A stretch of 63,819 nt of DNA, from contig JAGOUM010000010.1 of the NCBI GenBank assembly GCA_018061265.1, forward strand, positions 1 to 63,819, given 5' to 3'. Under the pieces are notes generated by a model. It was not told where the DNA came from, ran no database searches, and saw only the letters and a program-made list of their open reading frames with translations. Every line of letters begins with the position of its first letter. Position 1 is the stretch's first letter. A program made the position numbers and the translations under genes. Positions 7,747-24,342 of the stretch are shown here, in pieces. Origin of the DNA: Rhodoferax sp. (GTDB lineage Bacteria; Pseudomonadota; Gammaproteobacteria; Burkholderiales; Burkholderiaceae_C).

Positions 7747-8916
7747 CTAGCTGCCCTTGATGGTGTAGCTGCCATCCTTTGCCCACTTGATGGCGGCGTC
7801 CAGAAACACGGTCTTGAGTTCAGGTTTGTAGAGTTTGACCATGTCATGGGCTTCACCGCTGCGTGCACCGGCGCCACAGAAAAAGATGATCGGCTTGTCC
7901 GTCGGTAGTTTGTCTATATTTTTTTCGAGCGAGCTGACCGGCATATTGATGGCACCCTTGAATGTGCCGGTTGCCATTTCATTGGGTTCGCGTACGTCGA
8001 TGAGATAAACGGTGGTGGGTGCCTCTTTGTAGATCCGCTCAAACGACGCGATAGAGATGCTTCCCGACTCCTTGCCGGCCTCAATGGCGGGTGCCTTGGG
8101 CGCGGCCGCGCCACCCGACGCAGTTGGGCCGGCGCCGTAGGCTTTCACCCAAGCCGGGTAGCCTTCTGGTACCACCTTGACGTTGGTGTAGCCGAGTTTG
8201 ATCGCTTTCAGTGCCGAGTCGTTGCTCAGTCGGCAACTCAGGCCTTCACAATAAAAGAACAGTGCAGAGGCCTTGTCTTTGGGCAGGCGTTCTGCGGCGA
8301 GTTTGTCAAATTGTGAGTCGGGCAAGCTGATGGCACCCGGAATGTGGCCCAGGTCGAATTTGCGCTCCTTGGGCCGAGAGTCCACCAGTAACGTCGGCGA
8401 GTTTGCATCCATCAGTTTCTTCACGTGCGCTACGCTGACGGCGTGCAAATTGCCGCCGGCAATCCAGCCTGGAAAACCTTCAGCAAACACCCGAACATTG
8501 GTGTAGCCGAGCTTCTCAGCCTTGTGCGCCGAGTTATGGCTGAGCATGCACTCATAACCCTCGCAGTAAAAAACCAGCAAAGTGGTCTTATCGGCAGGCA
8601 GCAAGGTCGGTGCGAGCTTGTCGAAACTGGTGTCTGGGATATTGATGGCGGTCGGGATGTGGCCAACGTCAAACTTGCGTACTGTGGGCCGAGAGTCAAC
8701 CAGCAAGACCCCGTCAATTTTGGGCAAAACGGCTTGTTTCTCGACAAAGTCAAGCTTGACGAGCTTGCCGTACCAGCCCGGTGCCGGGTTTTCAGGGGAA
8801 TATTTGGGCGCTTCGGCCGATGCGGCCGGTGCAGCAGTGGCTGTCTGCGCATGAACTGGAGCAACAGCAAGTGCAGCGAACACCGCGGCAAGTAAGGCAA
8901 CGTGTCTAAATTTCAT
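7747..8916 (-). CDS. Periplasmic triple-rhodanese-domain protein (389 aa)
   Basis: A cleavable signal peptide (about residues 1-23, ending VHAQ) is followed by three rhodanese domains (about 65-150, 165-255 and 285-385). Domains 1 and 2 carry the active-site cysteine in loops of the form C-E-G-x-x-C-x-L-S; domain 3 has the canonical C-G-A-G-A-R-S-G loop. Rhodaneses bind and transfer sulfane sulfur as a cysteine persulfide, so this is probably a periplasmic sulfur relay. It is the last gene of a leftward operon cytochrome c - YeeE/YedE - rhodanese and has a two-domain paralogue at 20734-21564, whose last two domains it closely resembles. The extra domain suggests internal duplication. Confidence 0.9.
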   Translation of the reverse strand: MKFRHVALLAAVFAALAVAPVHAQTATAAPAASAEAPKYSPENPAPGWYGKLVKLDFVEKQAVLPKIDGVLLVDSRPTVRKFDVGHIPTAINIPDTSFDKLAPTLLPADKTTLLVFYCEGYECMLSHNSAHKAEKLGYTNVRVFAEGFPGWIAGGNLHAVSVAHVKKLMDANSPTLLVDSRPKERKFDLGHIPGAISLPDSQFDKLAAERLPKDKASALFFYCEGLSCRLSNDSALKAIKLGYTNVKVVPEGYPAWVKAYGAGPTASGGAAAPKAPAIEAGKESGSISIASFERIYKEAPTTVYLIDVREPNEMATGTFKGAINMPVSSLEKNIDKLPTDKPIIFFCGAGARSGEAHDMVKLYKPELKTVFLDAAIKWAKDGSYTIKGS

Positions 8917-8943
8917 GATGACTCCTAAAAAATGAGAGATGTG

Positions 8944-10188
8944 TCACATCAGTGTAAATTTTTCGGTTGATTCGTTGTAGCGCACCAGTGCGTACCAGAG
9001 CAGCAGCAAGCCCCCTGAAATCAGCAGGGTGACACCCCAGCCTGAGGTCATTTCAGGCAAATAGGCCTGAAAGCCGACGGCCGTGCGCTCGTAACTCTCA
9101 AGATTGGTTTCGTCAATGGAGGTGATCTGAAACTTCTTGAAAAGAGCACTGGCGGTTGATCCCATCCAGGCAAAGAAGAACATCGCAACCCACAGTTTGA
9201 GGTGGCCCTCACCCATGCGCCAAAGTGAGCCTGATGCACAGCCGCCAGCGAACACCATACCGATCCCAAAAATCAGGCCACCGAGCAGTGAGCCGATCCA
9301 GAACGTGGCCGGAATGGCCACATAGGGGTCAATGACTTTTTTCTGAAACAGCAAGGCGGCGAGCGGCACACCGATCGCCAGCGCCAGTATCACCGCCTTG
9401 GTCATTTCACCTTCGCCCGTGACAAACGGCTCGCGAAACGCCCGTGCAAAACACAGCCGCGACCGGTGCATGATGAAGCCAATGGCAAACCCGGACAGCA
9501 CAATCAGCCCACGCGCCGCCAGTGACTCATCACCCGAACTGCGCCATAGTACGGCCCAGGCCACGACACCTGCCAATACCAGCCAGCCTAGCCATGGGTA
9601 GGCTTGCTTGATGGCAGGAGCCACTTGCAGCGTTGGCGGCGCCTGCATGCCCCACTCAATGTTCTCCATGGTCCACAGCAAAATCTTGAACCCAATGGCA
9701 GCACCTGCCAGCAAGCCTAACCACATGGCCCAGCCTGCGGGTGAAGAATGCAGCACCGGGTTAAAAAAACCACCGGTGGTGCAGCCGCCGGCCAACGCTG
9801 CACCAATGCCCATGAGGCAGCCACCCACCATCGCCCAAACGTATTCGAGCTTGGGCGGGCGACTGGGTGCAAACTGGCGGGCCATCAGGGCAGCACAGAA
9901 AGCGCCCAACACCAGCGTGGTGTTCATCAGTGACATGCGGTGCGTCAAAAAGCCGTCCAGATGTTCAGGTACACCCAGCGCCGGACCCAAGCCGATAGCA
10001 GTGTTGATCCAGTCGCCCCAGAACTTGACACCACCAAAAACGCCCCACACCATGCCGTTGATCATCAAGCCCAAAATCACCAACACCAGCAACGCTACTC
10101 CCATGTAGGATGACCATTTGCTGACAAAAAGCAAGTTGTAGTCTGCCTTGAAACCTTTGACCCAGCGTGCTTGACCGGATTCACTCAT
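8944..10188 (-). CDS. YeeE/YedE family sulfur-compound transporter (414 aa)
   Basis: An integral membrane protein with about ten hydrophobic segments arranged as two halves, each holding a conserved G-G-C motif (LAGGCTTGGFFNP near residue 118 and FAGGCASGSLWRMG near 320). In the YeeE/YedE family these cysteine loops move thiosulfate or sulfane sulfur across the inner membrane. The ATG at 10188 is preferred over the GTG three bases earlier because AGGAA lies about seven bases before it. It sits between a cytochrome c gene and a periplasmic triple rhodanese, and near cytosolic TusA and DsrE2, which fits a periplasm-to-cytosol sulfur handover. The exact substrate is inferred. Confidence 0.9.
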   Translation of the reverse strand: MSESGQARWVKGFKADYNLLFVSKWSSYMGVALLVLVILGLMINGMVWGVFGGVKFWGDWINTAIGLGPALGVPEHLDGFLTHRMSLMNTTLVLGAFCAALMARQFAPSRPPKLEYVWAMVGGCLMGIGAALAGGCTTGGFFNPVLHSSPAGWAMWLGLLAGAAIGFKILLWTMENIEWGMQAPPTLQVAPAIKQAYPWLGWLVLAGVVAWAVLWRSSGDESLAARGLIVLSGFAIGFIMHRSRLCFARAFREPFVTGEGEMTKAVILALAIGVPLAALLFQKKVIDPYVAIPATFWIGSLLGGLIFGIGMVFAGGCASGSLWRMGEGHLKLWVAMFFFAWMGSTASALFKKFQITSIDETNLESYERTAVGFQAYLPEMTSGWGVTLLISGGLLLLWYALVRYNESTEKFTLM

Positions 10189-10252
10189 CACAGAATTCCT
10201 TCACAATTGAACAAATGGCCAATGCGGCCAACGATTGGCTATGCGCTGGTTT

Positions 10253-10645
10253 TCAGCTGCAACTTGCTGGTGCGTCGCCGTCTTTCGCACCTTTGATCAG
10301 AAATGCCTTGATGTCGTCGAACAACTCTTTGTCGGGTGTGTCGATAAACTTGGCGGCAGCCTTGTTGCTGTCCTTGATGCTGACGCGATAGTCCTTGCTG
10401 ACATATTTGCTCACCGTATCTTTGCCTTTGGCGTGTTTGTCGGTCAGCAGGTAGGCACCCCAGTCTGCCTTGGATTTGGTGCTCGGATTGATGGCACCAA
10501 CAGTTCCGGCGGTGTGACATGAAGTGCACACACTGCGGTAATACACCCGGCCGCGTTTCCAGTCCGCGTCATAAGCCTGTGCGGAAAACGATGCGCCAAT
10601 GAGCGCTATCAAGGCAGCGCCGGAAAGAATCTTGAAATGTGTCAT
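10253..10645 (-). CDS. Periplasmic monoheme cytochrome c (130 aa)
   Basis: A signal peptide (about 1-24, ending SAQA) precedes a small class I-type cytochrome with one heme motif, CTSCH, near residue 41. The protein is charged and ends in a short tail with a cysteine (APASCS). It is closely similar to the cytochrome at 21694-22086, differing mainly in the signal peptide and a few surface positions, so the two are recent paralogues. As first gene of the operon with the YeeE/YedE transporter and triple rhodanese, it may carry electrons to or from periplasmic sulfur chemistry. I see a heme-ligand methionine only in the signal region, so the sixth ligand is uncertain. Confidence 0.88.
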   Translation of the reverse strand: MTHFKILSGAALIALIGASFSAQAYDADWKRGRVYYRSVCTSCHTAGTVGAINPSTKSKADWGAYLLTDKHAKGKDTVSKYVSKDYRVSIKDSNKAAAKFIDTPDKELFDDIKAFLIKGAKDGDAPASCS

Positions 10646-11137: not shown

Positions 11138-12115
11138 CTAACTGCTCGTCGCTACTGGCAAGCGCGCAGAGGCAAGGACGTTGGCAATGTCGTTGACGAC
11201 AACCTTGTCGCCAGCGGCTTTGCTGAGGTTCACCCAGCAGAACGGACACATGGTCACGACGTCTTTACCCTGGGTTTCCAGCTGGGTGATGCGAATGCCA
11301 GAAATCCGATGCGCCTCGGCCGGGAAAAGTGACTCCAGCGGTCCGCCGCAGCAGTGGGTTGACCTGCCCGCCAATTCTGGTTCGCGCACCGTCAATCCCG
11401 CTGCGCGCAACAGTTCACGGGGTTGGTCAACAACATTCTCGTAGCGCGCATAGAGACAGGAGTCATGGACCACAACTTCCTTGTTCACCGCCGCCATCTT
11501 CTCTGGATTCGCCTGGGCCAAAACTTCCAGGTAGCTCTGCACCTCGATGTCATAGTCTTTGACAAATTTCGGGTACACCTGACGAAGCATGTTGGTGGTG
11601 TGTGGGTCCACCGTGATGACGCGCCGAACACCCAATTCTTTCAAACGCGCCGCCACCCGGCGTGCATGGTTGCCGAAGGTTTCATCCAGCCCATCGTCAT
11701 GCGCAATTGCGCCAGAATAGAACTCGTCTTCGTACAAATAGCCGAACTCGACCCCCGCGCCGCGAAGCAAACCCACAATGTCGCGCAATACCCGGGAGGC
11801 ATGCGCCGTTTTCTCCTTGGACGTGGTGAGGCCCATGAAGAAAGACATGCTCACGAACTTATTGATCAGACGACCGATGCCAAAATACCGCGTCAAGAAC
11901 GAATTTTCGAGCGCGGCCATCTGTGTGGACATGGAAACGATGGCCGGGATCATTTGATAGATTTGCCCGGTATAGATCACGGTCTTTCCACCACGTGGCA
12001 GATTGAGCCCTTCGGCCCAACCCGTAGCCGCCCGTTTTGAGAGCGGTAAAACGCTGCCGCGTTTGCGCAAGTTATCGGCAAAGATGCCCAGAATGGGTGC
12101 AATTGGTAATGGCAT
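11138..12115 (-). CDS. HdrB/HdrD-like CCG-domain iron-sulfur protein (325 aa)
   Basis: The last gene of the Hdr operon. The C-terminal half has one canonical CCG domain (VVHDSC, then STHCCGG, then MCPFC; about residues 215-300) that in heterodisulfide reductases and relatives holds a non-cubane [4Fe-4S] site where disulfide chemistry occurs. The N-terminal half keeps a Rossmann-like outline, but the place where a first CCG motif would sit has no cysteine pair, so it differs from HdrB of methanogens, which has two. Together with the HdrC-like protein 13 bases upstream it should form the catalytic arm of the complex. The substrate (persulfide or disulfide on TusA/DsrE2, or a thiol) is inference. 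Confidence 0.85.
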   Translation of the reverse strand: MPLPIAPILGIFADNLRKRGSVLPLSKRAATGWAEGLNLPRGGKTVIYTGQIYQMIPAIVSMSTQMAALENSFLTRYFGIGRLINKFVSMSFFMGLTTSKEKTAHASRVLRDIVGLLRGAGVEFGYLYEDEFYSGAIAHDDGLDETFGNHARRVAARLKELGVRRVITVDPHTTNMLRQVYPKFVKDYDIEVQSYLEVLAQANPEKMAAVNKEVVVHDSCLYARYENVVDQPRELLRAAGLTVREPELAGRSTHCCGGPLESLFPAEAHRISGIRITQLETQGKDVVTMCPFCWVNLSKAAGDKVVVNDIANVLASARLPVATSS

Positions 12116-12128
12116 TACATCGATCTTT

Positions 12129-12434
12129 CTACTTCAAGCCAAACTCTTGCTCGTTGATCAGGACACGCAGGCTGCGTATGTTTTCCGCGATATGAACCCC
12201 TGATGGACAATTCACCTCGCACATGCGGCACAGCAAACAGGAGTAAATCTGCGGGATGCTGGCGCGGACCTTGTCTTCAAGTCCGAACATCACATCACGA
12301 AACAGTTTGCGCGGCAAAACCTCATAACCTAGCGGGCACAGCGCCGAGCATGTTCCACAATGAAAACACGCGCTGGCGTTGAACCCTTCCGCATTCTTCA
12401 TGCGGGCCGCTAATTCAGATGACACTTTGATCAT
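12129..12434 (-). CDS. HdrC-like 2x[4Fe-4S] ferredoxin protein (101 aa)
   Basis: Two classical [4Fe-4S] motifs, CFHCGTCSALCP (about 23-34) and CLLCRMCEVNCP (about 66-77), in a short soluble protein. This is the HdrC architecture: an electron relay between the flavoprotein HdrA and the CCG-domain HdrB. No membrane segment is present, so the complex is cytosolic, unlike QmoC or HdrE forms. The ATG at 12434 lies 21 bases after the preceding stop and 13 bases before the HdrB-like gene, in a tight operon. Confidence 0.9.
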   Translation of the reverse strand: MIKVSSELAARMKNAEGFNASACFHCGTCSALCPLGYEVLPRKLFRDVMFGLEDKVRASIPQIYSCLLCRMCEVNCPSGVHIAENIRSLRVLINEQEFGLK

Positions 12435-12455
12435 TTTGTTATCCTCATCGCCAAC

Positions 12456-12725
12456 TCATGCGGCGGCAGACTGGTGTCGCTTCGAGAGTTCATATTGGAA
12501 GTACCCATCATCATCGACACGGCCGATTTCTTCGACCCTGCCATAGCGGCGCATGCCAAACAGCCAAATTGCCACTTCCCGAGGGGTATAGCCCAAGACC
12601 TCGGCGATCTCAGGAATCGTTTTTGGGCCTTCTTCAAGGATGCTGGCGATGCGGTCGCGCATGACCATTTCGTCTTGCGCAATGTCAAGCATGTCGCGCA
12701 ATTTGGGTTTCAGAATGGTGATCAT
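12456..12725 (-). CDS. Small winged-helix-like protein inside the Hdr operon (89 aa)
   Basis: An 89-residue soluble protein whose middle (about 25-75) reads as a winged helix-turn-helix: a helix, then T-I-P-E-I-A-E-V-L-G-Y-T-P-R-E-V as the probable helix-turn-helix, then a wing around R-R-Y-G-R-V-E-E-I. The ATG overlaps the stop of the HdrA gene (ATGA), so it is translationally coupled and made with the complex. It could be a DNA-binding regulator, or a structural subunit that has reused the fold. There are no cysteines, so no metal site is expected. I do not recognise a named family. Confidence 0.75.
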   Translation of the reverse strand: MITILKPKLRDMLDIAQDEMVMRDRIASILEEGPKTIPEIAEVLGYTPREVAIWLFGMRRYGRVEEIGRVDDDGYFQYELSKRHQSAAA

Positions 12726-14500
12726 GCTGTTACGGTCTCCTTAAGACTGGCATCAATCATGGCCATGATCTGGTCATCGCGGAAGCCTTCAATCACAATG
12801 GCTTCGTGCGGGCAGAGCGGGACGCACGCGCCTTCGCCCTTGCACGATGACTCGATCGCCAGTGCCACTTCCTTGTCGCCGCACAGGATCTTCTCAATGG
12901 CACCATAGGGGCAGGCCTTGAGGCATTCATCGCACCAGATGCATTTGTCGGTGTCAATTTTGGCGACAAGTGGTTCGAGGTTCAAAAAGCCCTTCTTCAG
13001 CAACGCGCCGGTTTTGGCGACGGCCGCAAGCGAGGATGCAACGCTTTCGGACAGGCTCTTGGGGCCTTGCGCGGTACCGGCAATACAAACGCCGTCAATG
13101 GCGGTTTCGACTGGCCGCAATTTGATGTGAATCTCGTTGTAGAACCCGTCTTTGCTCTTGGGAATCTTCAGCACATCGTTGAGCGCGTCGTTTTCACGCG
13201 GTGTCATGCCGGTAGCCAGCACCACCAAATCCACACCAATGTCCAACTCTTCATCGCCCAACAGGGTGTCTTTGGCTTTGATGGAAAGGCGACCATCGCC
13301 CGGTTCTACCCGTGGCGGTGCCTTGGGGTCCCAGCGCAGAAACAGCGCACCATCGGCGCGGGCGGTCGTGTACACGGTTTCCAGATGCCCATAGGTGCGG
13401 ACATCGCGGTACAGGTGGTACTGGTTGATGGTTTGCTTATGCTTCTTCTCAAAGTCGTGCAACAGGCTGCCAGTGAAAGCAGTGGCCGTGCAGCAGAATC
13501 GCGAGCAGTGGGTGTTGGGATGCGGACACTCTTCGCTTTGCTCCTGGCGACTCCCAACGCAGTAGATAAAACCAACATCACGCACTGGCTTGCCGTTGTA
13601 GGTCAACGGGCCGTCGTCGGCCAGCAGCATCTGGCGAAAATCTTTCAGGGTGACCACACCGGGCATGCCCCAGCCGTATTCGCCCACGCGGGGTTCATAC
13701 GGATTGAAGCCGGTCGTCACGATGATGGCACCCACGTTGAGTGAGAGGTCGTCCTTGTCACGCAGTCGCACCGTGGCGATGAAGTCGCCGATATGGCCAC
13801 TCTTGGCTTTCAGTTCGGCATTGGTATAAAGAATGATGTTGTCGTGCTTCTTGATTTGCGTGAGCAAATTGGCAACCACCTCGGAACCCAGCTGATTGAC
13901 CGGGCCCATCCGTCCGACTTGTGATGCCCAGCCGCCGGGCTCGCTCTCACGCTCAATGATATAAACCGCCAACCCCATGTCAGCCAGCGAAATGGCGGCA
14001 CGCATACCTGCCACACCCGCACCAATCACCAACACGCGTTGCTGGGTTTCAATGCGGGTGGGGGTCAGCGGATGCGTCAGGGCAGCCTTGGCGACACCGG
14101 CACGCACAATGTTGATACCTTTGAACGTGGCTCCAACCTTGTCACCCGAGTGCACCCAGGAGCACTGCTCACGCAGATTGACGTGAACGTACTCATAAGG
14201 GTTCATCCCGGCACGCTCCGCCATGGCGCGGAAAGTGTACATGTGAAGTTTTGGCGAGCACGAGGCAATGACCAAACCATCAAGGTTCTTCTCCTTGATC
14301 TCGTCAATCATCTCCTGTTGAGAAGCATCCGAGCAGGCAAACAAGTGCGTCCGTGCCACCGCCACATCCGCTTCACCGGCCACCGATTCAGCCACTTCCT
14401 TGACGTTCACATGGTCAGAGATATTCCCTCCGCAATGGCACACATAGACACCGATGCGGCGTTTGTCCGTCACTTCAGTCACTTCTGTCACGTCAGTCAT
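12722..14500 (-). CDS. HdrA-like FAD/iron-sulfur subunit (592 aa)
   Basis: Heterodisulfide-reductase subunit A-type flavoprotein. The N-terminal domain contains Y-V-C-H-C-G-G-N (about 19-26), FACSD and IASCSP, the family's cysteine-bearing region; an FAD-binding GAGVAG motif follows near 160, and a C-terminal double ferredoxin (CIWCDECLKACP, about 520, and CKGEGACVPLCP, about 550) ends the protein. In known Hdr complexes HdrA binds FAD and links MvhD with HdrBC, in some systems bifurcating electrons. The stop overlaps the winged-helix gene and the start overlaps the HdrA-GltD gene (ATGA both times), giving a coupled run. The first residues contain a short T-E-V repeat, which may be an extended or alternative start. 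Confidence 0.92.
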   Translation of the reverse strand: MTDVTEVTEVTDKRRIGVYVCHCGGNISDHVNVKEVAESVAGEADVAVARTHLFACSDASQQEMIDEIKEKNLDGLVIASCSPKLHMYTFRAMAERAGMNPYEYVHVNLREQCSWVHSGDKVGATFKGINIVRAGVAKAALTHPLTPTRIETQQRVLVIGAGVAGMRAAISLADMGLAVYIIERESEPGGWASQVGRMGPVNQLGSEVVANLLTQIKKHDNIILYTNAELKAKSGHIGDFIATVRLRDKDDLSLNVGAIIVTTGFNPYEPRVGEYGWGMPGVVTLKDFRQMLLADDGPLTYNGKPVRDVGFIYCVGSRQEQSEECPHPNTHCSRFCCTATAFTGSLLHDFEKKHKQTINQYHLYRDVRTYGHLETVYTTARADGALFLRWDPKAPPRVEPGDGRLSIKAKDTLLGDEELDIGVDLVVLATGMTPRENDALNDVLKIPKSKDGFYNEIHIKLRPVETAIDGVCIAGTAQGPKSLSESVASSLAAVAKTGALLKKGFLNLEPLVAKIDTDKCIWCDECLKACPYGAIEKILCGDKEVALAIESSCKGEGACVPLCPHEAIVIEGFRDDQIMAMIDASLKETVTA

Positions 14501-17229
14501 GATTGGCCCCTCGTCCGTTCGATATAGGCGGCTGCCTGGGTCGCTGCCGCGCCGGAGTGCAGCACGGTGTCGGGAATGTCCATCACACCAATGGTCGTAC
14601 CTGCCGCAAAAAGTCCATCGACGTTGGTGCGCGATGGTTCACTGAAGGGATCAATTTCTCGCACGTAGCCGAAATCGTCCGAACCCAATTGCTCGCCCTT
14701 GTAAAGCGCAAAGGCATCGGTATTGGGCAGAAATCCCACCGTCAGAACCACCAGATCGTGCTCACGCACCCGCTTGCCTCCTTCGCCCAGCATGTCTTCG
14801 TAATGCACTTGCAGGTTGCCATTGGGGAGCTCGTCAATTCGCGCTACCTTGCCCTTGACGAATTCGATGCCCATGCCAATGGCTTGCTCGTAGAACTCGT
14901 TGTAGCCCTTGCCAAATGCCCGAATGTCAATGGTGTAAATGGTGATGTCGGCCATTGGCAAGGCACCCATGGCCAACTGCGCCTGCTTGATGGAATACAT
15001 GCAGCCAATGCGGCAACACAGCGGGTTGCAGACCGTCTGGTCACGCGAGCCGACACACAGCAGGATGGCGATGCTTTCGGGCTCCTTGCCGTCGGAGGGC
15101 CGAAGTACCCCATTGAAAGGACGCGTCGGTGCCAACAACCGGTCCATCTGCGGGCCGCTGACCACATTGGGGTACCTGTCGTAGCCCAGCAGTTCCTTGG
15201 TGGCCGGGTCGAGAATCTTGAACCCGGTTGACATGACCACTGAACCCACATTCAGTGACATGGGTGTTGGCTTCTGGGAAAAATCAATACAGTTGGGCGC
15301 ACAGACGCTGACACATTCCATGCACTGTGAGCACTCGCCACAGTTCATGCAACGCAGCGCCTCCTGGCGTGCTTCTTCCTCGGTCATGACTTGCTCGTAG
15401 CACTCAAAGCTGACGCGACGTTTTTCCAGCGACAACACAGGCTGTGGAATGGGCTGGCGCTTGGTAAAGCGTTTGGCTTCATCGAGCACCACCGCCTTGT
15501 CGGTCTTCTCCATGACACCATCAAACGGAACGTCCATCGACTCGTTCTTCAGATGGCGGTCCATGTAGAACGCCGCGCGCCGCCCCTGGGCGATCGCGTT
15601 GATGATCATGGTCGGTGCCGTCACGCAGTCGCCACAGGCAAAAATATCCGGGTAGGCAGTCTGACGGGTTTGCGGATCAGCAATCAAAAGGCCCTTGCTG
15701 TTCTTCATCTCTGTGGGGAAATCAGTGGTCGATGGCAGCAGGCCAATGGCCAGCACCGCCATGTCAACCGGAATCACCTTTTCCGAACCTTTGAGCGGCA
15801 CCGGGCGACGCCGACCACTCTCATCAGGCTCGCCGAGTTCCATGGTGATGCATTCGACACCCACCAACTTGCCGTCATTGCCAATGAACTTGGTCGGCGC
15901 GCTCATCAGCATGAGCTCCACGCCTTCCTCAATGGCACCGTCGATTTCCCACTCATGCGCAGGCATTTCCTTGCGCCCGCGGCGGTAGTTGATGATGACC
16001 CGTTTGGCACCCATGCGAATGGCTGCCCGCGCCGGGTCCATTGCCGAGTTGCCGCCACCAATGACCATGACGGTTTTGCCCTTGACATCGGGCTTGGTAC
16101 CGATATTGATCTCATGCAGGAAATGCATGCAACCCATGATGCCGTCCAGATCGTGGCCATCAATATCGAGGCCATTTTCATCCGATGCACCCGTGGTGAT
16201 CAGAATGGCATTGAAGCCCTGCTGCTTGAGCTTAGACAGATCGGTGACCCGATGTCCGGTCTTGATTTGGACACCCAGCGCCGTGACGTTCTTGATATCA
16301 CGGTCCACCACATCGTTGGGGCAACGATAAGGGGGGATAGCGGTACGCAACATGCCGCCGGGCTTGCTTTCGGCCTCAAATATTGTGACTTGGTGACCTT
16401 CGCGCGCCAGATAGAACGCAGCACTCAAGCCCGCCGGGCCGGAGCCTACCACGGCAACCCGTGTTGCCAGCTGGTGCTCAACCGGACCGTATTCGGGTTC
16501 AGGATGCTCAGCATAGTAGTGGTCGGCCATGAAGCGCTTGATGCCACGGATTTGAACCGTTCCTTCTTTGTCGCCTCGCGTGCAGTCGGATTCGCAAGGC
16601 GCATAACACGCCCGCGCCAAGCTGCCGACCAGTGGTGCGTTTTCCAGATGCAGGTCGAACGCCTCTTTGAAGCGCCCCGCCCTGACCAGCGAGATATAAC
16701 CGCTGGCCTTGACGTTGCCCGGACAAGTGAAAGTGCAGGGGGCTTCGCCACGCCGGTCAATCACCGCCTTTTTGGGGATGGCCTGCGGGAAAGGAATATG
16801 TGCCACCCGGCGCGTCACCAGACCGTAGTTGTATTGATCAGGTACTGTGACCGTGCAGATTTCCTCGCACTTGCCACAGCCGGTACAGGCATCAAAGTCG
16901 ACGTAGGAGGCCTTTTTGTGCAAGTCCACAGCGAATGAGCCGTCGGCGTTGCGCACAACGCTGTCAACCTCGCTGTAGGTCATGATTTGCACATTGGGAT
17001 GATGCGAGACTGACGCCATTTTTGGCGTCACGATGCAACTCGCGCAATCGAGCGTCGGGAATACCTTACTCAGCAGGATGGCCCGTCCGCCAATGCTGGC
17101 ATCTTTGTCCACCAGCAGAACGCGGTATCCCATATCGCCCATCGAGGCAGCGGTTTCCATGCCGGCAACGCCAGCACCCACCACCATTACATCGTAGTCC
17201 AGCGGACGTGTTTCAGTATTAGGCTTCAA
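14497..17229 (-). CDS. HdrA-like protein split by a GltD-type NAD(P)H module (910 aa)
   Basis: An unusual composite. Residues 1-150 are HdrA N-terminal: FAD motif GAGVAG near 18, a DCASC pair, and CTGCGKCEEIC at 115-125. Residues about 160-600 are a complete glutamate-synthase small-subunit (GltD) module with its own cysteines (165, 169, 208, 212, 216), a first dinucleotide motif GSGPAG near 262, a second nucleotide-binding motif GGGNSAMD near 391 and a terminal IFACGD motif near 530. A cysteine-rich segment (627-647) and the C-terminal half of HdrA (about 650-910) follow. This predicts two flavins, several iron-sulfur clusters and an NAD(P)H site in one chain. Its start overlaps the MvhD-like gene by 11 bases. 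NADH versus NADPH preference and electron direction are not decidable here. Confidence 0.9.
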   Translation of the reverse strand: MKPNTETRPLDYDVMVVGAGVAGMETAASMGDMGYRVLLVDKDASIGGRAILLSKVFPTLDCASCIVTPKMASVSHHPNVQIMTYSEVDSVVRNADGSFAVDLHKKASYVDFDACTGCGKCEEICTVTVPDQYNYGLVTRRVAHIPFPQAIPKKAVIDRRGEAPCTFTCPGNVKASGYISLVRAGRFKEAFDLHLENAPLVGSLARACYAPCESDCTRGDKEGTVQIRGIKRFMADHYYAEHPEPEYGPVEHQLATRVAVVGSGPAGLSAAFYLAREGHQVTIFEAESKPGGMLRTAIPPYRCPNDVVDRDIKNVTALGVQIKTGHRVTDLSKLKQQGFNAILITTGASDENGLDIDGHDLDGIMGCMHFLHEINIGTKPDVKGKTVMVIGGGNSAMDPARAAIRMGAKRVIINYRRGRKEMPAHEWEIDGAIEEGVELMLMSAPTKFIGNDGKLVGVECITMELGEPDESGRRRPVPLKGSEKVIPVDMAVLAIGLLPSTTDFPTEMKNSKGLLIADPQTRQTAYPDIFACGDCVTAPTMIINAIAQGRRAAFYMDRHLKNESMDVPFDGVMEKTDKAVVLDEAKRFTKRQPIPQPVLSLEKRRVSFECYEQVMTEEEARQEALRCMNCGECSQCMECVSVCAPNCIDFSQKPTPMSLNVGSVVMSTGFKILDPATKELLGYDRYPNVVSGPQMDRLLAPTRPFNGVLRPSDGKEPESIAILLCVGSRDQTVCNPLCCRIGCMYSIKQAQLAMGALPMADITIYTIDIRAFGKGYNEFYEQAIGMGIEFVKGKVARIDELPNGNLQVHYEDMLGEGGKRVREHDLVVLTVGFLPNTDAFALYKGEQLGSDDFGYVREIDPFSEPSRTNVDGLFAAGTTIGVMDIPDTVLHSGAAATQAAAYIERTRGQS

Positions 17230-17626
17230 GAGACTTTAACTCCTGTTGGTATTTGTTCATGTGAACAACGAAGTTGTCCGCGCAGACGGAGCAGAGCCCG
17301 GCCATCTTCAGTCGTTTGGGACTGATGCCGTGCTCTTTCATCATCGTTTGCGCGCGCGAAACCAGTGTGCTGGTGCGCGATGTGCAATCAGTCAGGTAGG
17401 CACAGTCACCCCCGCAGGCGGCAATAAATACGCCATCAAAGCCACGTTCGAGGGCATGAACGATCCAGGAAGGCTTGACACCGCTGGAACAGGGCAAGGG
17501 GATGACCTGTACGGCAGTCGAATAGTGCAAATGTGCACTGCCGGCTTGGTCAATACCTGGATCCGAGATCGCGTTCGTTGAGAACACGAGGATCTTTGGG
17601 GCGTTATCGCTGGCGGGGGTACTCAC
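17219..17626 (-). CDS. MvhD/FlpD-like [2Fe-2S] electron-transfer subunit (135 aa)
   Basis: Matches the MvhD/FlpD family of hydrogenase-heterodisulfide reductase linker proteins in length and in its cysteine pattern: V-I-P-L-P-C-S-S near 47, A-C-G-G-D-C near 70, a single cysteine near 78, and L-C-S-V-C near 111. In methanogens this subunit passes electrons from hydrogenase or formate dehydrogenase to HdrA. No hydrogenase is encoded in the window, so here it may connect HdrA to the NAD(P)H module next door or to another donor. It sits between TusA and the HdrA-GltD gene, overlapping the latter by 11 bases. Confidence 0.88.
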   Translation of the reverse strand: MSTPASDNAPKILVFSTNAISDPGIDQAGSAHLHYSTAVQVIPLPCSSGVKPSWIVHALERGFDGVFIAACGGDCAYLTDCTSRTSTLVSRAQTMMKEHGISPKRLKMAGLCSVCADNFVVHMNKYQQELKSLEA

Positions 17627-17628
17627 TT

Positions 17629-17883
17629 TTAGACCTTCCGACGCAGGTAAACGCTCCAGAAACCATCATTCTCGACATCACCGAGATACTCGTGGCCCAT
17701 CTTCTTGCACCAACGCTGAATGTCAACAATGGTGCCGCTGTCCGACGATTGCACCTCCATTGCACCGCCGACAGCAACTTCGCCAATGGCGCGCTTTGCT
17801 TCAAGCATGGGACCAGGACAAGCGGTGCCACGGGCATCGATGAGTTTACCGATCGACAGAGCTTTTAATTCACTAGCATTCAT
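17629..17883 (-). CDS. tusA: TusA-family sulfur carrier (84 aa)
   Basis: A short SirA/TusA protein with the defining C-P-G-P motif (DARGTACPGPML, cysteine near residue 22); that cysteine carries sulfane sulfur as a persulfide. The ATG at 17883 starts at the usual place for the family; an open frame further upstream has no matching extension and is rejected. It lies in the same operon as a DsrE2-like protein and the Hdr genes, the grouping expected when TusA delivers sulfur to a cytosolic oxidising or disproportionating complex instead of tRNA thiolation. Two bases separate its stop from the MvhD-like ATG. Confidence 0.92.
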   Translation of the reverse strand: MNASELKALSIGKLIDARGTACPGPMLEAKRAIGEVAVGGAMEVQSSDSGTIVDIQRWCKKMGHEYLGDVENDGFWSVYLRRKV

Positions 17884-17932
17884 GGTATGGAGCCTTTTGA
17901 GTTGGGTTAAAAAATGGATTGAAAGTGATCTG

Positions 17933-18424
17933 TTACATGAACCAGCATTGTTTGGAGTGGCTGCACATATCAATGAGGGTGGCGACACCGGCAAACTTGA
18001 TGTTCGGGTAGTCGATCAGGTCTTCACGCTTGATGCCCATGAGATCCATCGACAGGTTGCAAACAGTGATTCGCACCCCGAGCTCACCAGCAGTGCTGAT
18101 GAGCTGGTCAAGAGGCATGGCGTTGTGTTTCTTCAAATCAAACTTGATTTCTGAAGGCTGCATTGCGCCCGCCGAATCCGGCAGATCTCGCTTGGCCTTG
18201 CTCGGGTCAACCAGCGCTGCGGTGGCCCTGAGCATGAAGAACATGTCGACTTCCGTATCGAAGGTTGTTGCGCCAAGCGCGATCATGAAGGCACCCATCG
18301 TGTGCTCAAGGTCACCGCTCATCACACCGATGGTGAGTTGATCCTTGGGTGCCTCGCGCTCAAGTGCTTCCACCCGTTTCAGCAGGTCTTGCAGAAGTTG
18401 GTCCTTGTCTTGACTGTCGCTCAT
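17933..18424 (-). CDS. DsrE2-like sulfurtransferase (163 aa)
   Basis: A DsrE/DsrF-fold protein of the DsrE2 type: a short N-terminal coiled helix (about 8-26), the strand-turn D-L-E-H-T-M-G-A-F, and the cysteine motif V-R-I-T-V-C-N-L-S-M-D-L-M-G, which carries the sulfane sulfur in the family. Two more cysteines lie in the tail (MCSHSKQCWF). Unlike many DsrE2 proteins it lacks obvious membrane helices. The ATG at 18424 has GAGGAAAG about six bases before it; a TTG-type start 15 bases earlier is less likely. It is the first full-size gene of the Hdr operon and probably exchanges sulfur with TusA. Confidence 0.9.
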   Translation of the reverse strand: MSDSQDKDQLLQDLLKRVEALEREAPKDQLTIGVMSGDLEHTMGAFMIALGATTFDTEVDMFFMLRATAALVDPSKAKRDLPDSAGAMQPSEIKFDLKKHNAMPLDQLISTAGELGVRITVCNLSMDLMGIKREDLIDYPNIKFAGVATLIDMCSHSKQCWFM

Positions 18425-19197: not shown

Positions 19198-19337
19198 GTC
19201 TGCAGTTTTGTAACTTATTGATAACGTTGACTATTTTTCCGCGTAATCTCCATTGGCTCAGATAGACTGCAAAAAATGGCGGCAGTGACCTCACGAAACC
19301 GCCATAATTGGCGGTCAAAAAACCTTGGGAGTTGTGC

Positions 19338-20636
19338 GTGAACCTGAACAAAATCAGTTCGTTTCTGGATTCATTTGACGAACCAAGCATCGTCATGGAT
19401 GCCAACTACCGCATCCTCTCAGCCAATCAAGCCTATCTGCGCGACTTCAGCAACAATGGCCCGGTCGTTGGCCGCCTTTGTTATGAAATCTCTCACCGGT
19501 TCAGTGTGCCCTGTGATCAGGCAGGCGAATCTTGTCCCTTGCAGGCAAGCCGGGCCAGCGGTCAGAAAGAACGGGTACTTCACCTTCACTACACATCACG
19601 TGGCGAAGAACACGTCGATGTCGAAACGACGCCGATCAGCGACGACAACGGAGAGCGAACACTCTACGTCGAGACGATGCGCGTGGTACGCCAGGCCAGC
19701 AGTCGCCCTGCGGCGCAGGGTCTGGTGGGACGCTCGCCGGCGTTTACCCGCATGCTGGCACGTGTGATGCGCGTTGCGCCGTCAATGGCAGCGGTGATGC
19801 TGCTTGGTGAAACCGGCACCGGCAAGGAGCTGGTCGCTCGGGCAATCCACGAAGGTAGTGCACGTGCGGCCCGTCCATTCGTTCCGGTCGACTGTTCAGG
19901 CTTGACGGAAACCCTCTTCGAAAGCGAGCTGTTTGGCTACGAGAAAGGTGCCTTCACCGGCGCGACGCACCGCAAACAGGGCCTGATCGAAACGGCCAAC
20001 GGCGGCACATTGTTTCTTGATGAAATTGGCGATCTGCCGCTTGCGCTGCAAGTCAAGCTATTGCGATTGCTCGAAACCGGCACTTTTCGGCGCGTCGGCG
20101 GTGTAGAGGTGTTGCCAGCGAATTTCCGCCTCATCTCGGCGACGCACCGCGATCTCGATGCTTTGGTCAAAGTGGAAACATTTCGCCGCGATCTGTACTT
20201 TCGCATCAACACATTTCCAATCCACACGCCGTCTTTGCGAGAACGCGCGCCTGACCTCGCGTTGCTAGTCGAGTCACTGCTTTCGCGCGTCGCGCCGGGA
20301 CGCGAATTGCATTTAAATGCCGAGGCGATGTCGATGCTGGAGTCCATGCAGTTCGATGGCAATATTCGTGAATTGCGCAATCTTCTCGAGCGTGCCAGCC
20401 TGCTTGCCGATGGAGATGAAATCGAACCTCGGCATATCCTCGACATGGAGACCGAACCGGAAGCCAGTGCGGTTACGCGCCCCAAAGAGATCGACGGCAG
20501 GTGGCTGACGCTCAAGGAAAACGAGCATCGTTATCTGGCCTGGGCGTTGGCGGCGCACCAAGGCGATCGCCCAGCACTGGCGCGGCACCTTGGCATCAGC
20601 GAACGCACCTTGTTCCGAAAACTTGGTACTTTGTAA
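19338..20636 (+). CDS. Sigma-54-dependent transcriptional activator with PAS-type sensor (432 aa)
   Basis: An enhancer-binding protein. An N-terminal PAS-type sensor (about 8-120) has several cysteines (LCYEISHRFSVPCDQAGESC) that could bind a metal, heme or sulfur species. A complete AAA+ domain follows, with Walker A GETGTGKE near 155, the sigma-54-contacting GAFTGA motif, and FLDEIGDL. A Fis-type helix-turn-helix closes the protein (LARHLGISERTLFRKL). The GTG at 19338 is preferred because GGGAG lies six bases before it; an upstream ATG at 19308 has no good site. No response-regulator receiver domain is present, so sensing is direct. It is divergent from the Hdr operon and probably activates its sigma-54 promoters. 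Confidence 0.92.
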   Translation: MNLNKISSFLDSFDEPSIVMDANYRILSANQAYLRDFSNNGPVVGRLCYEISHRFSVPCDQAGESCPLQASRASGQKERVLHLHYTSRGEEHVDVETTPISDDNGERTLYVETMRVVRQASSRPAAQGLVGRSPAFTRMLARVMRVAPSMAAVMLLGETGTGKELVARAIHEGSARAARPFVPVDCSGLTETLFESELFGYEKGAFTGATHRKQGLIETANGGTLFLDEIGDLPLALQVKLLRLLETGTFRRVGGVEVLPANFRLISATHRDLDALVKVETFRRDLYFRINTFPIHTPSLRERAPDLALLVESLLSRVAPGRELHLNAEAMSMLESMQFDGNIRELRNLLERASLLADGDEIEPRHILDMETEPEASAVTRPKEIDGRWLTLKENEHRYLAWALAAHQGDRPALARHLGISERTLFRKLGTL

Positions 20637-20733: not shown

Positions 20734-21564
20734 CTATTTGGCCTTGATGGTGTAACTGCCGTCTTTGAGCCACTGGATGTCAGCATCCAGAAAAGCGGTT
20801 TTCAGCTCAGGTTTGTACAGCTTGACCATGTCATAAGCCTCACCGCTGCGCCCGCCAGCACCGCAGAAGAAGATGATGGGCTTGTCAGTGGGCAGCTTGT
20901 CAATGCTCTTCTCCAGCGCATTGATGGGGAAGTTGAGCGCACCCTTGAAGGTGCCAGCGGCCACCTCCTGCGGTTCCCGCACGTCGATCAGGTGTACTGT
21001 GTCGGGTGCTTCTTTGTAGATGCGCTCAAACGATGCCACCGTAATGGTGCCAGCCTCTTTGCCTGCTTCCATCGCCGGGGGTGGCAAGGCGGAGGGCAGG
21101 CCTGAGTTTTTCACCCAATCGGGCATACCTGCTTCGTAAACACGGATATTGGTATAGCCCAGCTTTTCGGCCTTGAAGGCCGAGTTGTGGCTAAGCACAC
21201 AGGTTGGGCCATCGCAATAAAAAATCAGCAATTTGGATTTGTCAGCCGGCAACAGCTTGGGGGCGAGCTTGTCAAACTGTGAATCGGGCATGTTCACAGC
21301 GGTGGGAATGTGCCCCAGGTTGAACTTGCGCGCTGCGGGCCGTGCATCAATGATCATGGTGCCGTCGCCTTTGGCAGCCACCACATAAGGCTTGACGAAG
21401 GCCAGGTCAACAATCTGGCTGTAGCGCTTGAATGACGCGCTGGCAGCAGGCGCTGCCGGTTCTGCAGCAGCCTGAGCGTAGGCTGCAGTGCTGCAAAACA
21501 TGGGCAGCATGACCAAAGAGGCGGCCAGCACGGTGCTGGCAAAGTGGAACGATTGGCGTGACAT
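20734..21564 (-). CDS. Periplasmic double-rhodanese protein (276 aa)
   Basis: A signal peptide (about 1-31, ending AYAQ) and two rhodanese domains. The first (about 55-150) has the cysteine loop C-D-G-P-T-C-V-L-S-H; the second (about 175-270) has the canonical C-G-A-G-G-R-S-G loop. The C-terminal domain is nearly the same as that of the triple rhodanese at 7747-8916, including a shared SIDKLPTDKPIIFFCGAG-type stretch. Two adjacent ATGs exist; the one at 21564 is better spaced from AAGGAG. It is the last gene of the leftward octaheme cytochrome - cytochrome b - cytochrome c operon and is probably a periplasmic sulfane-sulfur acceptor or donor. Confidence 0.9.
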   Translation of the reverse strand: MSRQSFHFASTVLAASLVMLPMFCSTAAYAQAAAEPAAPAASASFKRYSQIVDLAFVKPYVVAAKGDGTMIIDARPAARKFNLGHIPTAVNMPDSQFDKLAPKLLPADKSKLLIFYCDGPTCVLSHNSAFKAEKLGYTNIRVYEAGMPDWVKNSGLPSALPPPAMEAGKEAGTITVASFERIYKEAPDTVHLIDVREPQEVAAGTFKGALNFPINALEKSIDKLPTDKPIIFFCGAGGRSGEAYDMVKLYKPELKTAFLDADIQWLKDGSYTIKAK

Positions 21565-21693
21565 CATGAACTCCTTTTTGTAAACTGGCGCGAAAGCAAA
21601 GCCGCACAAAATATGCCCGGCAATGGCCCCAAGCCAGGCATGCTGTTGAAACAGGAAACCATTGGAAACGACGACTGGTTCAGGGGCTGGCTA

Positions 21694-22086
21694 TTAACTG
21701 CAACTCGCCGGTGCATCACCGTCTTTGGCACCCTTTATCAAAAAGGACTTGATGTCCTCAAACAATTCCTTGGCGGGTGTGTCGGCAAACTTGGCAGCGG
21801 CCTTGTTGCTGTCTTTGATGCTGGCACGGTATTCAGGACTGACGTATTTGCTCACCGTTTCCTTACCTTTGGCGTGCTTGTCGGTCAGCATGTAGGCACC
21901 CCAGTCGGCTTTGGTCTTGGTGCTGGGGTTGATGGAACCAATGGGTGCTGCGGTGTGGCATGAAGTGCATACGCTGCGGTAGTACACCCGGCCGCGCTTC
22001 CAGTCTGCGTCATACGCTTGTGCTGAAAACGATGCACCCAGCAGCGTCAGCAAAGCGGCAGTGGTGAGGGTATTGAAATGTGTCAT
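21694..22086 (-). CDS. Periplasmic monoheme cytochrome c, paralogue (130 aa)
   Basis: Same length and layout as the cytochrome at 10253-10645: a signal peptide ending SAQA, mature start YDADWKRGRVYY, one CTSCH heme site near residue 41, and an identical GAKDGDAPASCS tail. The strong identity along the mature chain marks a duplication shared by the two cassettes. Here it follows the membrane cytochrome b, so it may be the soluble partner passing electrons between that protein and the octaheme cytochrome or a terminal acceptor. Confidence 0.88.
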   Translation of the reverse strand: MTHFNTLTTAALLTLLGASFSAQAYDADWKRGRVYYRSVCTSCHTAAPIGSINPSTKTKADWGAYMLTDKHAKGKETVSKYVSPEYRASIKDSNKAAAKFADTPAKELFEDIKSFLIKGAKDGDAPASCS

Positions 22087-22111
22087 GCGAATCTCCTGAT
22101 AAGAAATGAAA

Positions 22112-22708
22112 TTAGTCGAGCTCTTCCCAGCCAGTGATCATGGCCTTGATCTGCGAGGTGACTTTGTGACCCGTGGTGGCCAGATACAGGTGCGAAATCA
22201 AAAACGCCAGCATGAGAAAGGCACCAATCACATGGCCGGTGGCGACCCATTCCAGCTGCAGGCTGCTCAGGCCCCAATTGGCCCAGTCGGCGTAGTACAA
22301 ATACAGCCAGCCGGTGATCCAGATCAGCGGGCTCAGCAGGGTCAAAATGGCCAGGTAGGTCAGACGTTGCAGCGGGTTGTGCTTTTGCCGCGAGCTGGGC
22401 TTAAAAGGGTGAGGTTCGTTCTTGAAGATCCCCGAAGAGTAATAGTTCATGATCGCCACCACCTTGTCAAAGGTGGGTATGTATTGGCGCCATTCGCCCG
22501 TGGTCACATGCCAGAAGATGGCAAACACCCACAGCCCCACCAAGGTCCATGCCGCAGTAACGTGCAAGTCAACGGCACGCTCAAACCCCAGCAGGTTGTA
22601 GGTGCCACGAATCTCAAAGCCGCTGACCAGCATGAAGATGATCAGCGCCGCCTGCGACCAGTGCCAGAAGCGCTCAAAGCCCTTGAACAGATAGACACGT
22701 TCACTCAT
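22112..22708 (-). CDS. Membrane cytochrome b, hydrogenase/thiosulfate-reductase type (198 aa)
   Basis: Four hydrophobic segments with histidines in positions typical of the Ni,Fe-hydrogenase/thiosulfate-reductase cytochrome b family (F-W-H-W in helix 1, D-L-H-V in helix 2, a histidine in V-A-T-G-H-V-I-G, and S-H-L-Y in the last). These ligate two b hemes. The ATG overlaps the stop of the octaheme cytochrome gene (ATGA), so the two are made in step and likely form a quinone-linked membrane complex. Such a protein either reduces quinone with electrons from the periplasm or delivers quinol electrons outward; direction is not shown. Confidence 0.88.
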   Translation of the reverse strand: MSERVYLFKGFERFWHWSQAALIIFMLVSGFEIRGTYNLLGFERAVDLHVTAAWTLVGLWVFAIFWHVTTGEWRQYIPTFDKVVAIMNYYSSGIFKNEPHPFKPSSRQKHNPLQRLTYLAILTLLSPLIWITGWLYLYYADWANWGLSSLQLEWVATGHVIGAFLMLAFLISHLYLATTGHKVTSQIKAMITGWEELD

Positions 22709-24327
22709 TTTGTTGCTCCTTGAGTCTTGCCACGAGACACCACGCGCAGTGCGCCATGGCCCAACACACCGATCAGCACCAACAGCGCAAGACTCCAGCC
22801 CAGCTTGTCAAGCCAGGCGGTGCTGCCGCTGCCGGGCATGTAGATGCCATCCAGGCCAGCCAGGCGGCCGTCCTTGCTGTGGCAGTCGACACAACTCAGG
22901 GCTTTGTCTTTGGGTGCCACCATGTGGGTGATGGGCCAGTCCATCTGGGTCTTTACAAAGTCAAACTTACCAGAATACGGGGTGCCCGACACCTTCATGC
23001 CGGCCTCAATGGCCTTATTCCACTCCAGGTTCTTCCAGTAGCCGGTATCGTCATTGCCCGCGGTGTGCGGCGTGATCAGCGTCATGTTGCCGGTGTCATA
23101 AGGTTGCTTACCGCCAAAGCGTTTGATAGGCCAGATCATCGACTTGCCGTCGCTGGCGCTGCCGCCCAGCTTGTTGATGTGGGTCACCGGCTGGCTGGTG
23201 TCGAGCTTGTCGGTAAGCAACGTGTAGTTGACCTGCCCGTTGAACCAGACGTACTGTGGTTTGACGTTTTCGGCCAGCACAAAGTCGCCCTTGCGTGACT
23301 CGTAAGTGATGTGGCCTTTGGCATCTTTGCGCACGATGTGCTGGCCGTTGGCATCACGCTGGCCTGCGGTAGACCAGTCCCAGTTCATCTTGGTGGCGAT
23401 GCCACCCCGGGCGAAGGTTGGAATGTGGCACGTCTGGCAGGCCAGCTTGGCGGTGTGCTGGTTCAGTCGCTGTTTGGTTTTGTGCGGGCCATTGCCGTGG
23501 CACGACACGCAGGTGGCCGGGTTGCCATTGCCAGTGTTGCCGCGAAGGTGCGCGCCCTTGCCGTCTTTGGCGGTGGGGGTGTAGCGGCTGCCGGCCACGT
23601 CATGGCTGGAGGTTTTGTGGCATGTGCCACAGGTGAAGTCCAGGCCAGAGGCATCCATGTGCACATCAAGCTCTTTTTCAGGTGCGGCCAACGAACTGTC
23701 CATGTCACCGTGTTTGACCCCATCGCCGCCGCCACCATTGAAGTGGCAGGCGCCGCAGGTGTCACGACTGGATTTACCCACCTTCTGGGCAATTTTGGAG
23801 AGATCAATGCCCTTGAGGATCTTGCCCGAGCCGGGCGGAGACTCGGTGTCTTTGGTGAGCACATTGCCGGCAAAGCCGGCTGGTTTTTTGTAATTGCCAG
23901 TGGTGTCGTGGCACACCACGCAGTCCACATTTTCTTCGGACTTGAAGTCAAACGACGCATCTTTCCAGCCGTAACCCACATGGCAACTGTTGCATGCAGC
24001 CTCGTTCGACGCAACGGAGATGCAGAAGTTGTTGACCACATTTTTCTTGCCCAACAGCTGGTTGGTCTCAGGGTTGCGGTATTCCCACTTCCAGTGCTTG
24101 GTGCGGTGAATCTGTCCGGCCGCCTCGGTGTGGCAACTCAGGCAGACTTTGGTCAGCTCAGGGCCAGAGTTGAACTGGACTTGCAATTCCTTGAACTTGG
24201 AGTGGTCTGCGGTAGTGTTGAGCTTGAGCGGTTTGTCTTCTTGAGCCTGGATTGCTGTTGCAGTACCAAACAACAAACAGCCAACGATGCCTAACACCGT
24301 GGTTATGTGCTTGAAATGGATAGTCAT
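22705..24327 (-). CDS. Octaheme tetrathionate-reductase-type cytochrome c (540 aa)
   Basis: A signal peptide (about 1-28, ending QAQE), eight CxxCH motifs (CLSCH, CNSCH, CVVCH, CGACH, CGTCH, CVSCH, CQTCH and a distant CVDCH near 490) and a C-terminal membrane helix (about 510-530) followed by a basic tail. Eight hemes at this spacing fit the octaheme tetrathionate reductase family, whose members also reduce nitrite or hydroxylamine in vitro; the physiological substrate is often unknown. The ATG at 24327 with AGAGG six bases before it is preferred to a TTG at 24333. As first gene of an operon with cytochromes b and c and a rhodanese, a sulfur oxyanion or polysulfide substrate is plausible. Confidence 0.85.
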   Translation of the reverse strand: MTIHFKHITTVLGIVGCLLFGTATAIQAQEDKPLKLNTTADHSKFKELQVQFNSGPELTKVCLSCHTEAAGQIHRTKHWKWEYRNPETNQLLGKKNVVNNFCISVASNEAACNSCHVGYGWKDASFDFKSEENVDCVVCHDTTGNYKKPAGFAGNVLTKDTESPPGSGKILKGIDLSKIAQKVGKSSRDTCGACHFNGGGGDGVKHGDMDSSLAAPEKELDVHMDASGLDFTCGTCHKTSSHDVAGSRYTPTAKDGKGAHLRGNTGNGNPATCVSCHGNGPHKTKQRLNQHTAKLACQTCHIPTFARGGIATKMNWDWSTAGQRDANGQHIVRKDAKGHITYESRKGDFVLAENVKPQYVWFNGQVNYTLLTDKLDTSQPVTHINKLGGSASDGKSMIWPIKRFGGKQPYDTGNMTLITPHTAGNDDTGYWKNLEWNKAIEAGMKVSGTPYSGKFDFVKTQMDWPITHMVAPKDKALSCVDCHSKDGRLAGLDGIYMPGSGSTAWLDKLGWSLALLVLIGVLGHGALRVVSRGKTQGATK

Positions 24328-24342
24328 GTTCAACCTCTTTAA

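Follow-up and report, generated by a model that had tools for sequence, protein, structure and literature searches.

The question raised by this locus is whether sulfur carriers and heterodisulfide reductase (Hdr)-like proteins encoded side by side in a betaproteobacterium belong to an already named sulfur pathway or to another kind of electron-transfer system. The window, i.e., the whole stretch of 63,819 nucleotides analysed here, is contig JAGOUM010000010.1 of a Rhodoferax sp. draft genome. It carries an eight-gene operon (11138-18424, minus strand) with the order dsrE2, tusA, flpD, a gene encoding an HdrA::GltD chimera, hdrA, a winged-helix gene, hdrC and hdrB. Judged from its genes, this operon probably joins sulfur carriers to an Hdr/Bam-like electron-transfer complex, which would link bound sulfur to NADP(H). 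We give a probability of roughly one half to the more precise proposal that it encodes a cytoplasmic Hdr-type complex coupling protein-bound sulfane sulfur to NADP(H). The gene identities and positions given in the initial annotation of the window are borne out by family matches, and the core recurs in 13 other loci. The genes of the operon are the following.

17933-18424, minus strand: DsrE2-like sulfurtransferase (PF13686, 72 bits)
17629-17883, minus strand: TusA sulfur carrier (PF01206, 70 bits; CPGP motif)
17219-17626, minus strand: FlpD/MvhD-type Fe-S subunit (PF02662, 101 bits)
14497-17229, minus strand: HdrA::GltD chimera, 910 residues, an HdrA-type FAD domain with a GltD/NfnB-type insert
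12722-14500, minus strand: HdrA, 592 residues, with an N-terminal domain, a FAD domain and a C-terminal dicluster
12456-12725, minus strand: winged-helix protein, 89 residues, fold taken from a structure model
12129-12434, minus strand: HdrC, with two [4Fe-4S] motifs
11138-12115, minus strand: HdrB, with a single CCG (non-cubane cluster) motif/domain

The link to NAD(P)(H), which the initial annotation had already put forward, appears likely. The HdrA-type FAD domain of the chimera is made of residues about 1-158 and 627-905 (HdrA2 match at 627-904) and is interrupted by a GltD/NfnB-type domain inserted at about residues 160-565. Over residues 158-649, the chimera scores 457 bits against a GltD-like family of NAD(P)-binding proteins, below the cut-off of 516, and the top solved matches of the insert are 9bov, 9n5u (NfnA) and 8oh5, together with further GltD-type chains. 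Furthermore, the insert carries, in 13 of the 14 loci that have the module, a YRR motif, which is associated with NADP in a passage of PMC7596348. By homology to HdrA and to NfnA/GltD-type proteins, the complex may also be capable of electron bifurcation.

The residues expected to handle sulfur are well kept. The CPGP motif of TusA is unchanged in all 13 aligned sequences and Cys122 of DsrE2 in all 12, the DsrE2-like protein of the operon scoring only 34 bits against the NCBIfam DsrE2 model (cut-off 210). HdrB has one CCG motif in the nine sequences compared, as counted with a narrow pattern that matches neither the DsrK of the same genome nor sHdrB1. Against solved proteins it gives a match to EtfD (52 bits), and its structure model (pLDDT, the model's own confidence score, of 68) is similar to EtfD, HdrB and LutA. 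The winged-helix gene is kept in every one of the 13 module loci extending to its position. The only match of its product at E ≤ 0.001 is SmtB; the idea that it could be a counterpart of DsrD is unsupported, DsrD not being among the best 50 of 1857 matches.

On this basis, the following mechanism can be proposed. Sulfane sulfur would reach TusA and DsrE2, and the single non-cubane cluster of HdrB would exchange electrons with the persulfide or disulfide form of these carriers. Through flavin-based coupling, the two flavoproteins would then shuttle electrons among the HdrB site, NADP(H) and a low-potential carrier. The likelier direction would be oxidation of the carriers with formation of NADPH, aided by a reduced low-potential carrier; we lean to this direction because most hosts carry sox or dsr genes. 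The strongest form of this proposal is tentative and rather doubtful: an Hdr/Bam core, through its built-in NfnB-type site, would feed electrons into NADPH by confurcation from two donors, the sulfane sulfur bound to TusA/DsrE2 and a low-potential carrier. If it were true, sulfur oxidation would yield NADPH with no need for reverse electron transport across the membrane. The supply of NAD(P)H in sulfur oxidisers is an old question, the usual answers being reverse electron transport or DsrL. With sulfur carriers, an NADP(H) flavoprotein and an active site of Hdr type encoded in one operon, a direct route to NAD(P)H becomes testable.

Recurrence of the core argues that its gene content is not due to chance. 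A census of one genome per species (84,980 species), limited to six short peptide patterns and thus giving a lower bound, retrieved at least 19 loci. The module is present in at least 13 of them besides the window (L004-L015 and L018), in records of Beta- and Alphaproteobacteria, Acidobacteria and Actinobacteria and in records named only “bacterium”. The complete eight-gene order is found in 6 of these 14 loci (the window, L004, L005, L007, L008 and L018), and three others (L010, L011 and L014) show it as far as their truncated contigs reach. The dsrE2 gene lies at the 3' end of the module in L006 and L009; in L012, a DsrE-like frame, read by eye and without family match, has the same position. 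More distant forms were also found: L016 and L017 encode a GltD-bearing HdrA and a second HdrA in a single frame (1404 and 1489 residues), like BamE plus an insert, while L019-L022 match around the GltD part only.

The nearest named relative found is a Rhodoferax metagenome-assembled genome (MAG; L014), whose chimera is 99% identical over 475 residues. Chimeras from alpha- and betaproteobacteria share 82-85% identity, which suggests a transfer between classes. This transfer is not established, since the trees of the two flavoproteins disagree: the chimera groups L006 and L007 with Rhodoferax-like rows in two trees (98/89 and 97/88), a third leaving the grouping open, whereas the HdrA part places three alphaproteobacterial rows outside the betaproteobacterial ones. 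Carriage by plasmids was also considered and rejected: a search of 72,556 plasmid records gave 6 matches with E ≤ 1e-60, in the GltD part and none covering more than 53% of the chimera.

The host is a 4.24-Mb draft genome, 89.5% complete. The initial annotation described a system without sox or dsr genes, which holds for the 64-kb window and fails for the genome. SoxB (850 bits, cut-off 550) and SoxX, SoxA and SoxY, all over cut-off, are encoded on another contig (C172). A third contig (C158) encodes DsrA (531 bits, cut-off 393) within a dsr operon that also includes DsrE, DsrF, DsrH, DsrC, DsrK and DsrO over cut-off, a dsrB-like frame and, under cut-off, DsrM-like (166 bits, cut-off 300) and DsrP-like (62 bits, cut-off 350) proteins. 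The same operon has genes for a DsrN-like protein, for an NAD(P)-binding protein similar to DsrL (747 bits) and for a triheme protein interpreted as DsrJ. The DsrEFH genes and the dsrL-like gene mark, as we assume, an oxidative-type dsr operon. A molybdopterin oxidoreductase encoded past it is presumably SoeA, its NCBIfam matches lying below cut-off. The host genome therefore looks like that of a Sox-Dsr-Soe oxidiser, in the terms used in part of PMC6397845. Since the host is otherwise an ordinary sulfur oxidiser, the operon would be an unusual add-on rather than a replacement pathway, and its complex would work beside Dsr and DsrL, not instead of them.

Two other features of the dsr contig can be mentioned. 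The DsrN-like protein (C158:49204-50988; L149:11704-13488) has an unexpected C-terminal fusion to a DsrC/TusE-family domain (residues 488-589, 92 bits, cut-off 53.5). A second tusA-dsrE2-yedE cluster (C158:25883-28717, L148) is located some 10 kb upstream of dsrA; the DsrE2 encoded there, unlike that of the operon, exceeds the NCBIfam cut-off (278 bits versus 210). The host genome has three TusA matches in total.

Most genomes with the module have sox or dsr genes. Among the 14, DsrA is over cut-off in 11, SoxB in 8 and either of them in 12; a Roseiarcus MAG (L007) has the module and dsrA on one contig, 9 kb apart. DsrA is over cut-off in 84 of 399 genomes of the order and in 25 of 89 genomes of the genus. 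Module-type HdrA was found in at least 1 of the 399 (the host genome itself, with 3 candidates per genome scored) and in at least 3 of the 89 (G000, which is the host, G472 and G485, with up to 15 candidates per genome scored); in a fourth genome of the genus (G446, the L014 genome judging by the place of its dsrA), the module is interrupted by a contig end. DsrA occurs in 7 of the 8 betaproteobacterial module genomes, compared with 83 of 398 genomes of the order (Fisher p = 1.4e-4), in a test that, like the other DsrA association test, ignores shared ancestry, 4 of these 8 genomes belonging to the genus of the host (G000, G399, G400 and G409). A partnership with AprAB is not general, AprA being over cut-off in 6 of the 14 module genomes, present in two pieces in one more (G405), and not over cut-off in the host.

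Phylogenetic analyses place both flavoproteins in clades of their own. Module HdrA (13 rows, 100/100) and the chimera (10 rows, 100/100) are apart from sHdrA, QmoA and QmoB, the sHdrA group (three rows) being carried by a branch of 1.35-1.5 changes per column (100/100). These results bear on the possibility that the operon is a variant of the sHdr pathway, oxidising persulfide to sulfite. Such a variant would account for the Hdr-like proteins found with TusA and DsrE-type carriers, a combination shared with sHdr loci (L140 and L142). However, HdrA of the operon lies outside the sHdrA group, there is only one HdrB and one HdrC instead of two pairs, and no lipoate-binding protein LbpA was found in the searchable draft of the host genome, as the initial annotation had reported for the window. 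One of the two GCV_H matches of this genome is strong (132 bits) and sits between gcvT and gcvP; the other reaches 23 bits in a 615-residue frame. LbpA is described as “inevitably associated” with sHdr in an excerpt of PMC6067878. Membership of sHdr is rejected because the trees exclude HdrA from the sHdr clade and no LbpA was found, and a pathway variant of this type is very unlikely. The distinction from classical sHdr made in the initial annotation thus stands. The same annotation held that the operon would be reduced to a known pathway variant by sox genes and a lipoate-binding protein elsewhere in the genome, or by HdrABC proteins falling in the sHdr clade; sox (and dsr) genes are indeed present, while neither of the other two was found.

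In the trees, and subject to a long-branch warning taken up below, the nearest neighbours of both flavoproteins are proteins of class II benzoyl-CoA reductase. Module HdrA joins the C-terminal half of BamE (100/99 and 98/97) and the chimera its N-terminal half (91/85 and 88/78), the Bam proteins being represented by three rows from two genomes of the genus of the host. By pairwise comparison, the chimera is also closest to BamE-N (283 bits, the next being 257), and module HdrB, compared with six proteins, scores 95 bits with BamD and at most 27 bits with the five others; FlpD is matched to BamF by its position and a weak match (52 bits). Sequence comparison thus lends moderate support to a correspondence in which the chimera would be the counterpart of the N-terminal half of BamE, HdrA of its C-terminal half, HdrC and the one-cluster HdrB of BamD, and FlpD of BamF. 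The Bam-type clusters used here come from G429 and G475 (L197 and L198), the latter genome having two sets. They were recognised as probable Bam clusters from an AFOR-type gene match followed by BamC-, BamD-, BamE- and BamF-like genes, in the usual order of bam genes. Six more genomes of the genus have similar HdrA frames of about 1040-1140 residues.

The proximity to BamE in the trees, and that of HdrB to BamD, could also mean that the function is not dissimilatory: the Bam-like core would serve a tungsten enzyme or another reductase, and TusA and DsrE2 would supply sulfur for cofactor synthesis. The host does have an AFOR-type gene, on a different contig (C81). Yet there is none among the genes of the operon, and 5 of the 14 module genomes (G401, G402, G404, G407 and G408) have no AFOR match, so that an AFOR/Bam partnership is not required. 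This explanation seems improbable.

Coupling of sulfane sulfur to NADP(H) has itself to be weighed against several observations that speak against it. Its sulfur side would rest on TusA and DsrE2, and the YRR motif is missing from the insert of L015. In L013 (11594-12718) and L015 (14625-15788), the Acidobacteria and Actinobacteria records, hdrC-hdrB are replaced by a QmoC-like membrane protein (189 and 184 bits, under the cut-off of 300), and the terminal electron partner thus appears swappable. The tree program flagged the BamE joins as possible long-branch artefacts, reduced quick trees keep them with Shimodaira-Hasegawa-like approximate likelihood ratio test (SH-aLRT) values of 82 and 90 only, and the pairwise score of HdrA is higher with methanogen HdrA (363 bits) than with BamE-C (307 bits). 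In two module genomes, G401 and G410, neither SoxB nor DsrA reaches the cut-off. Finally, G485, the L004 genome, is 99% complete and has the module with no DsrA match, and the link with DsrA within the genus is weak (3 of 4 module genomes versus 22 of 85 others, p = 0.065). It is because of these last two results that an obligate partnership with reverse Dsr is not claimed; a link to Dsr is suggested by the counts, without being obligatory.

The case of G485 is also consistent with the same complex working in the opposite direction. NADPH would then reduce TusA/DsrE2-bound sulfane sulfur, with release of sulfide, and a low-potential ferredoxin simultaneously, as proposed for FlxABCD-HdrABC with DsrC in Desulfovibrio. 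Reduction of a disulfide is the downhill, bifurcating direction of Hdr, which counts in favour of this scheme, and so does the interaction of Desulfovibrio vulgaris DsrC with FlxABCD-HdrABC during fermentative growth, as given in a part of PMC10504309. By contrast, SoxB or DsrA is over cut-off in 12 of the 14 hosts and no Flx-type gene is found among those of the operon. The reductive scheme is possible, and we hold it as a minority view beside oxidation of the carriers with NADPH formation.

The operon is flanked by two cassettes and by a divergent regulatory gene.

7747-8916, minus strand: triple-rhodanese protein with an N-terminal hydrophobic stretch (downstream cassette)
8944-10191, minus strand: YeeE/YedE transporter, PF04143 (downstream cassette)
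10253-10645, minus strand: small c-type cytochrome, one CXXCH in the translation, paralogue of 21694-22086 (downstream cassette)
19308-20636, plus strand: sigma-54-dependent regulator with a PAS domain, divergent from the operon
20734-21609, minus strand: double-rhodanese protein with an N-terminal hydrophobic stretch (upstream cassette)
21694-22086, minus strand: small c-type cytochrome, near-copy of 10253-10645 (upstream cassette)
22112-22708, minus strand: cytochrome b561-type membrane subunit (upstream cassette)
22705-24333, minus strand: octaheme c-type cytochrome of the tetrathionate reductase family, TIGR04315, 628 bits, cut-off 375 (upstream cassette)

The search of the module across other genomes, advised in the initial annotation, returned the core without its neighbours: the yedE, rhodanese and octaheme cassettes are not conserved with it. 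The yedE and octaheme genes of the window have no match in the other 13 module loci, the flanks being short in some of these; L007 and L013 do have rhodanese-like stretches close to the core, and L018 a cytochrome b. Judged by eye, the two small cytochromes c (10253-10645 and 21694-22086) and the two rhodanese proteins (7747-8916 and 20734-21609) resemble pairs of near-copies, and the two cassettes may thus result from a duplication around the operon. In the order, the octaheme cytochrome tracks DsrA: among the 399 genomes, 35 have it over cut-off, and DsrA is likewise over cut-off in 28 of these. The octaheme cytochrome is over cut-off in 8 of the 14 module genomes. Homologues of the regulator occur near the module in L014 (90%), L018 (67%) and L012 (32%); its PAS domain has several cysteines and may sense redox or sulfur.

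The position of yedE matters for a further explanation, raised as a possibility in the initial annotation, according to which the operon encodes a sulfur-disproportionation complex. In the window, yedE, tusA, a dsrE-type gene and hdr genes do lie within 11 kb, and the YTD cluster (DsrEFH type II) is similar in having tusA and a dsrE-type gene with yedE nearby. However, yedE is outside the conserved module, the marker value of the YTD cluster is disputed, and the host has Sox and oxidative-type dsr genes. Furthermore, in the sections consulted of PMC12998232 and PMC13293266, this cluster comprises yedE, tusA and dsrE plus two or three more genes and has no hdr genes. No candidate for these further genes was seen among the window genes read, no profile search being aimed at them. 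Disproportionation is not supported on gene content, and we regard it as extremely unlikely.

Comparison with known systems summarises where the operon stands. Like DsrL, it includes an NfnB/GltD-type flavoprotein of sulfur oxidisers, the insert being 31% identical to the DsrL-like protein of the same genome; in the operon, however, the domain is inserted in an HdrA-type protein, and the genome has a separate dsrL-like gene. With QmoABC or QmoAB-HdrCB (HdrAACB), it shares two HdrA-type flavoproteins and HdrC and HdrB in the same order, L013 and L015 ending in a QmoC-like protein, whereas its flavoproteins are outside the QmoA and QmoB clades, it has the insert and TusA/DsrE2, and its genome has no AprA over cut-off. 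It has the HdrA, HdrB, HdrC and MvhD-type parts of methanogen HdrABC-MvhD and of FlxABCD-HdrABC, the identity of module HdrA to its methanogen counterpart being 38% in the two stretches compared. It differs from them by the single cluster motif of HdrB and by an NfnB-type insert in place of the hydrogenase or Flx module.

The closest likeness is to BamDEF, with a one-CCG HdrB and HdrC (BamD), paired HdrA-type domains (BamE) and an MvhD-type subunit (BamF), which are nearest in the trees under the long-branch warning given above. In the part of PMC13328260 consulted, class II benzoyl-CoA reductase is BamBCDEFGHI, with BamE and BamD homologous to HdrA, B and C. The operon differs in lacking, among its genes, the tungsten subunits BamB and BamC, in dividing the BamE-like protein into two, one of them with a GltD/NfnB-type insert, and in the addition of TusA, DsrE2 and the winged-helix protein. 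No paper recognised as describing the operon was found in the open-licence literature searched, subscription papers lying outside it, which weakly supports its absence in print. Since sHdr and Qmo each fail a tested feature, the further YTD genes are unseen and the Bam catalytic subunits are absent, the operon is, as far as its sequences indicate, to be grouped with the Hdr/Bam electron-coupling systems and not with any already named sulfur pathway. This suggests reuse of an Hdr/Bam-type core beyond aromatic degradation and methanogenesis, with either HdrC-HdrB or a QmoC-like protein as a terminal partner that could be swapped.

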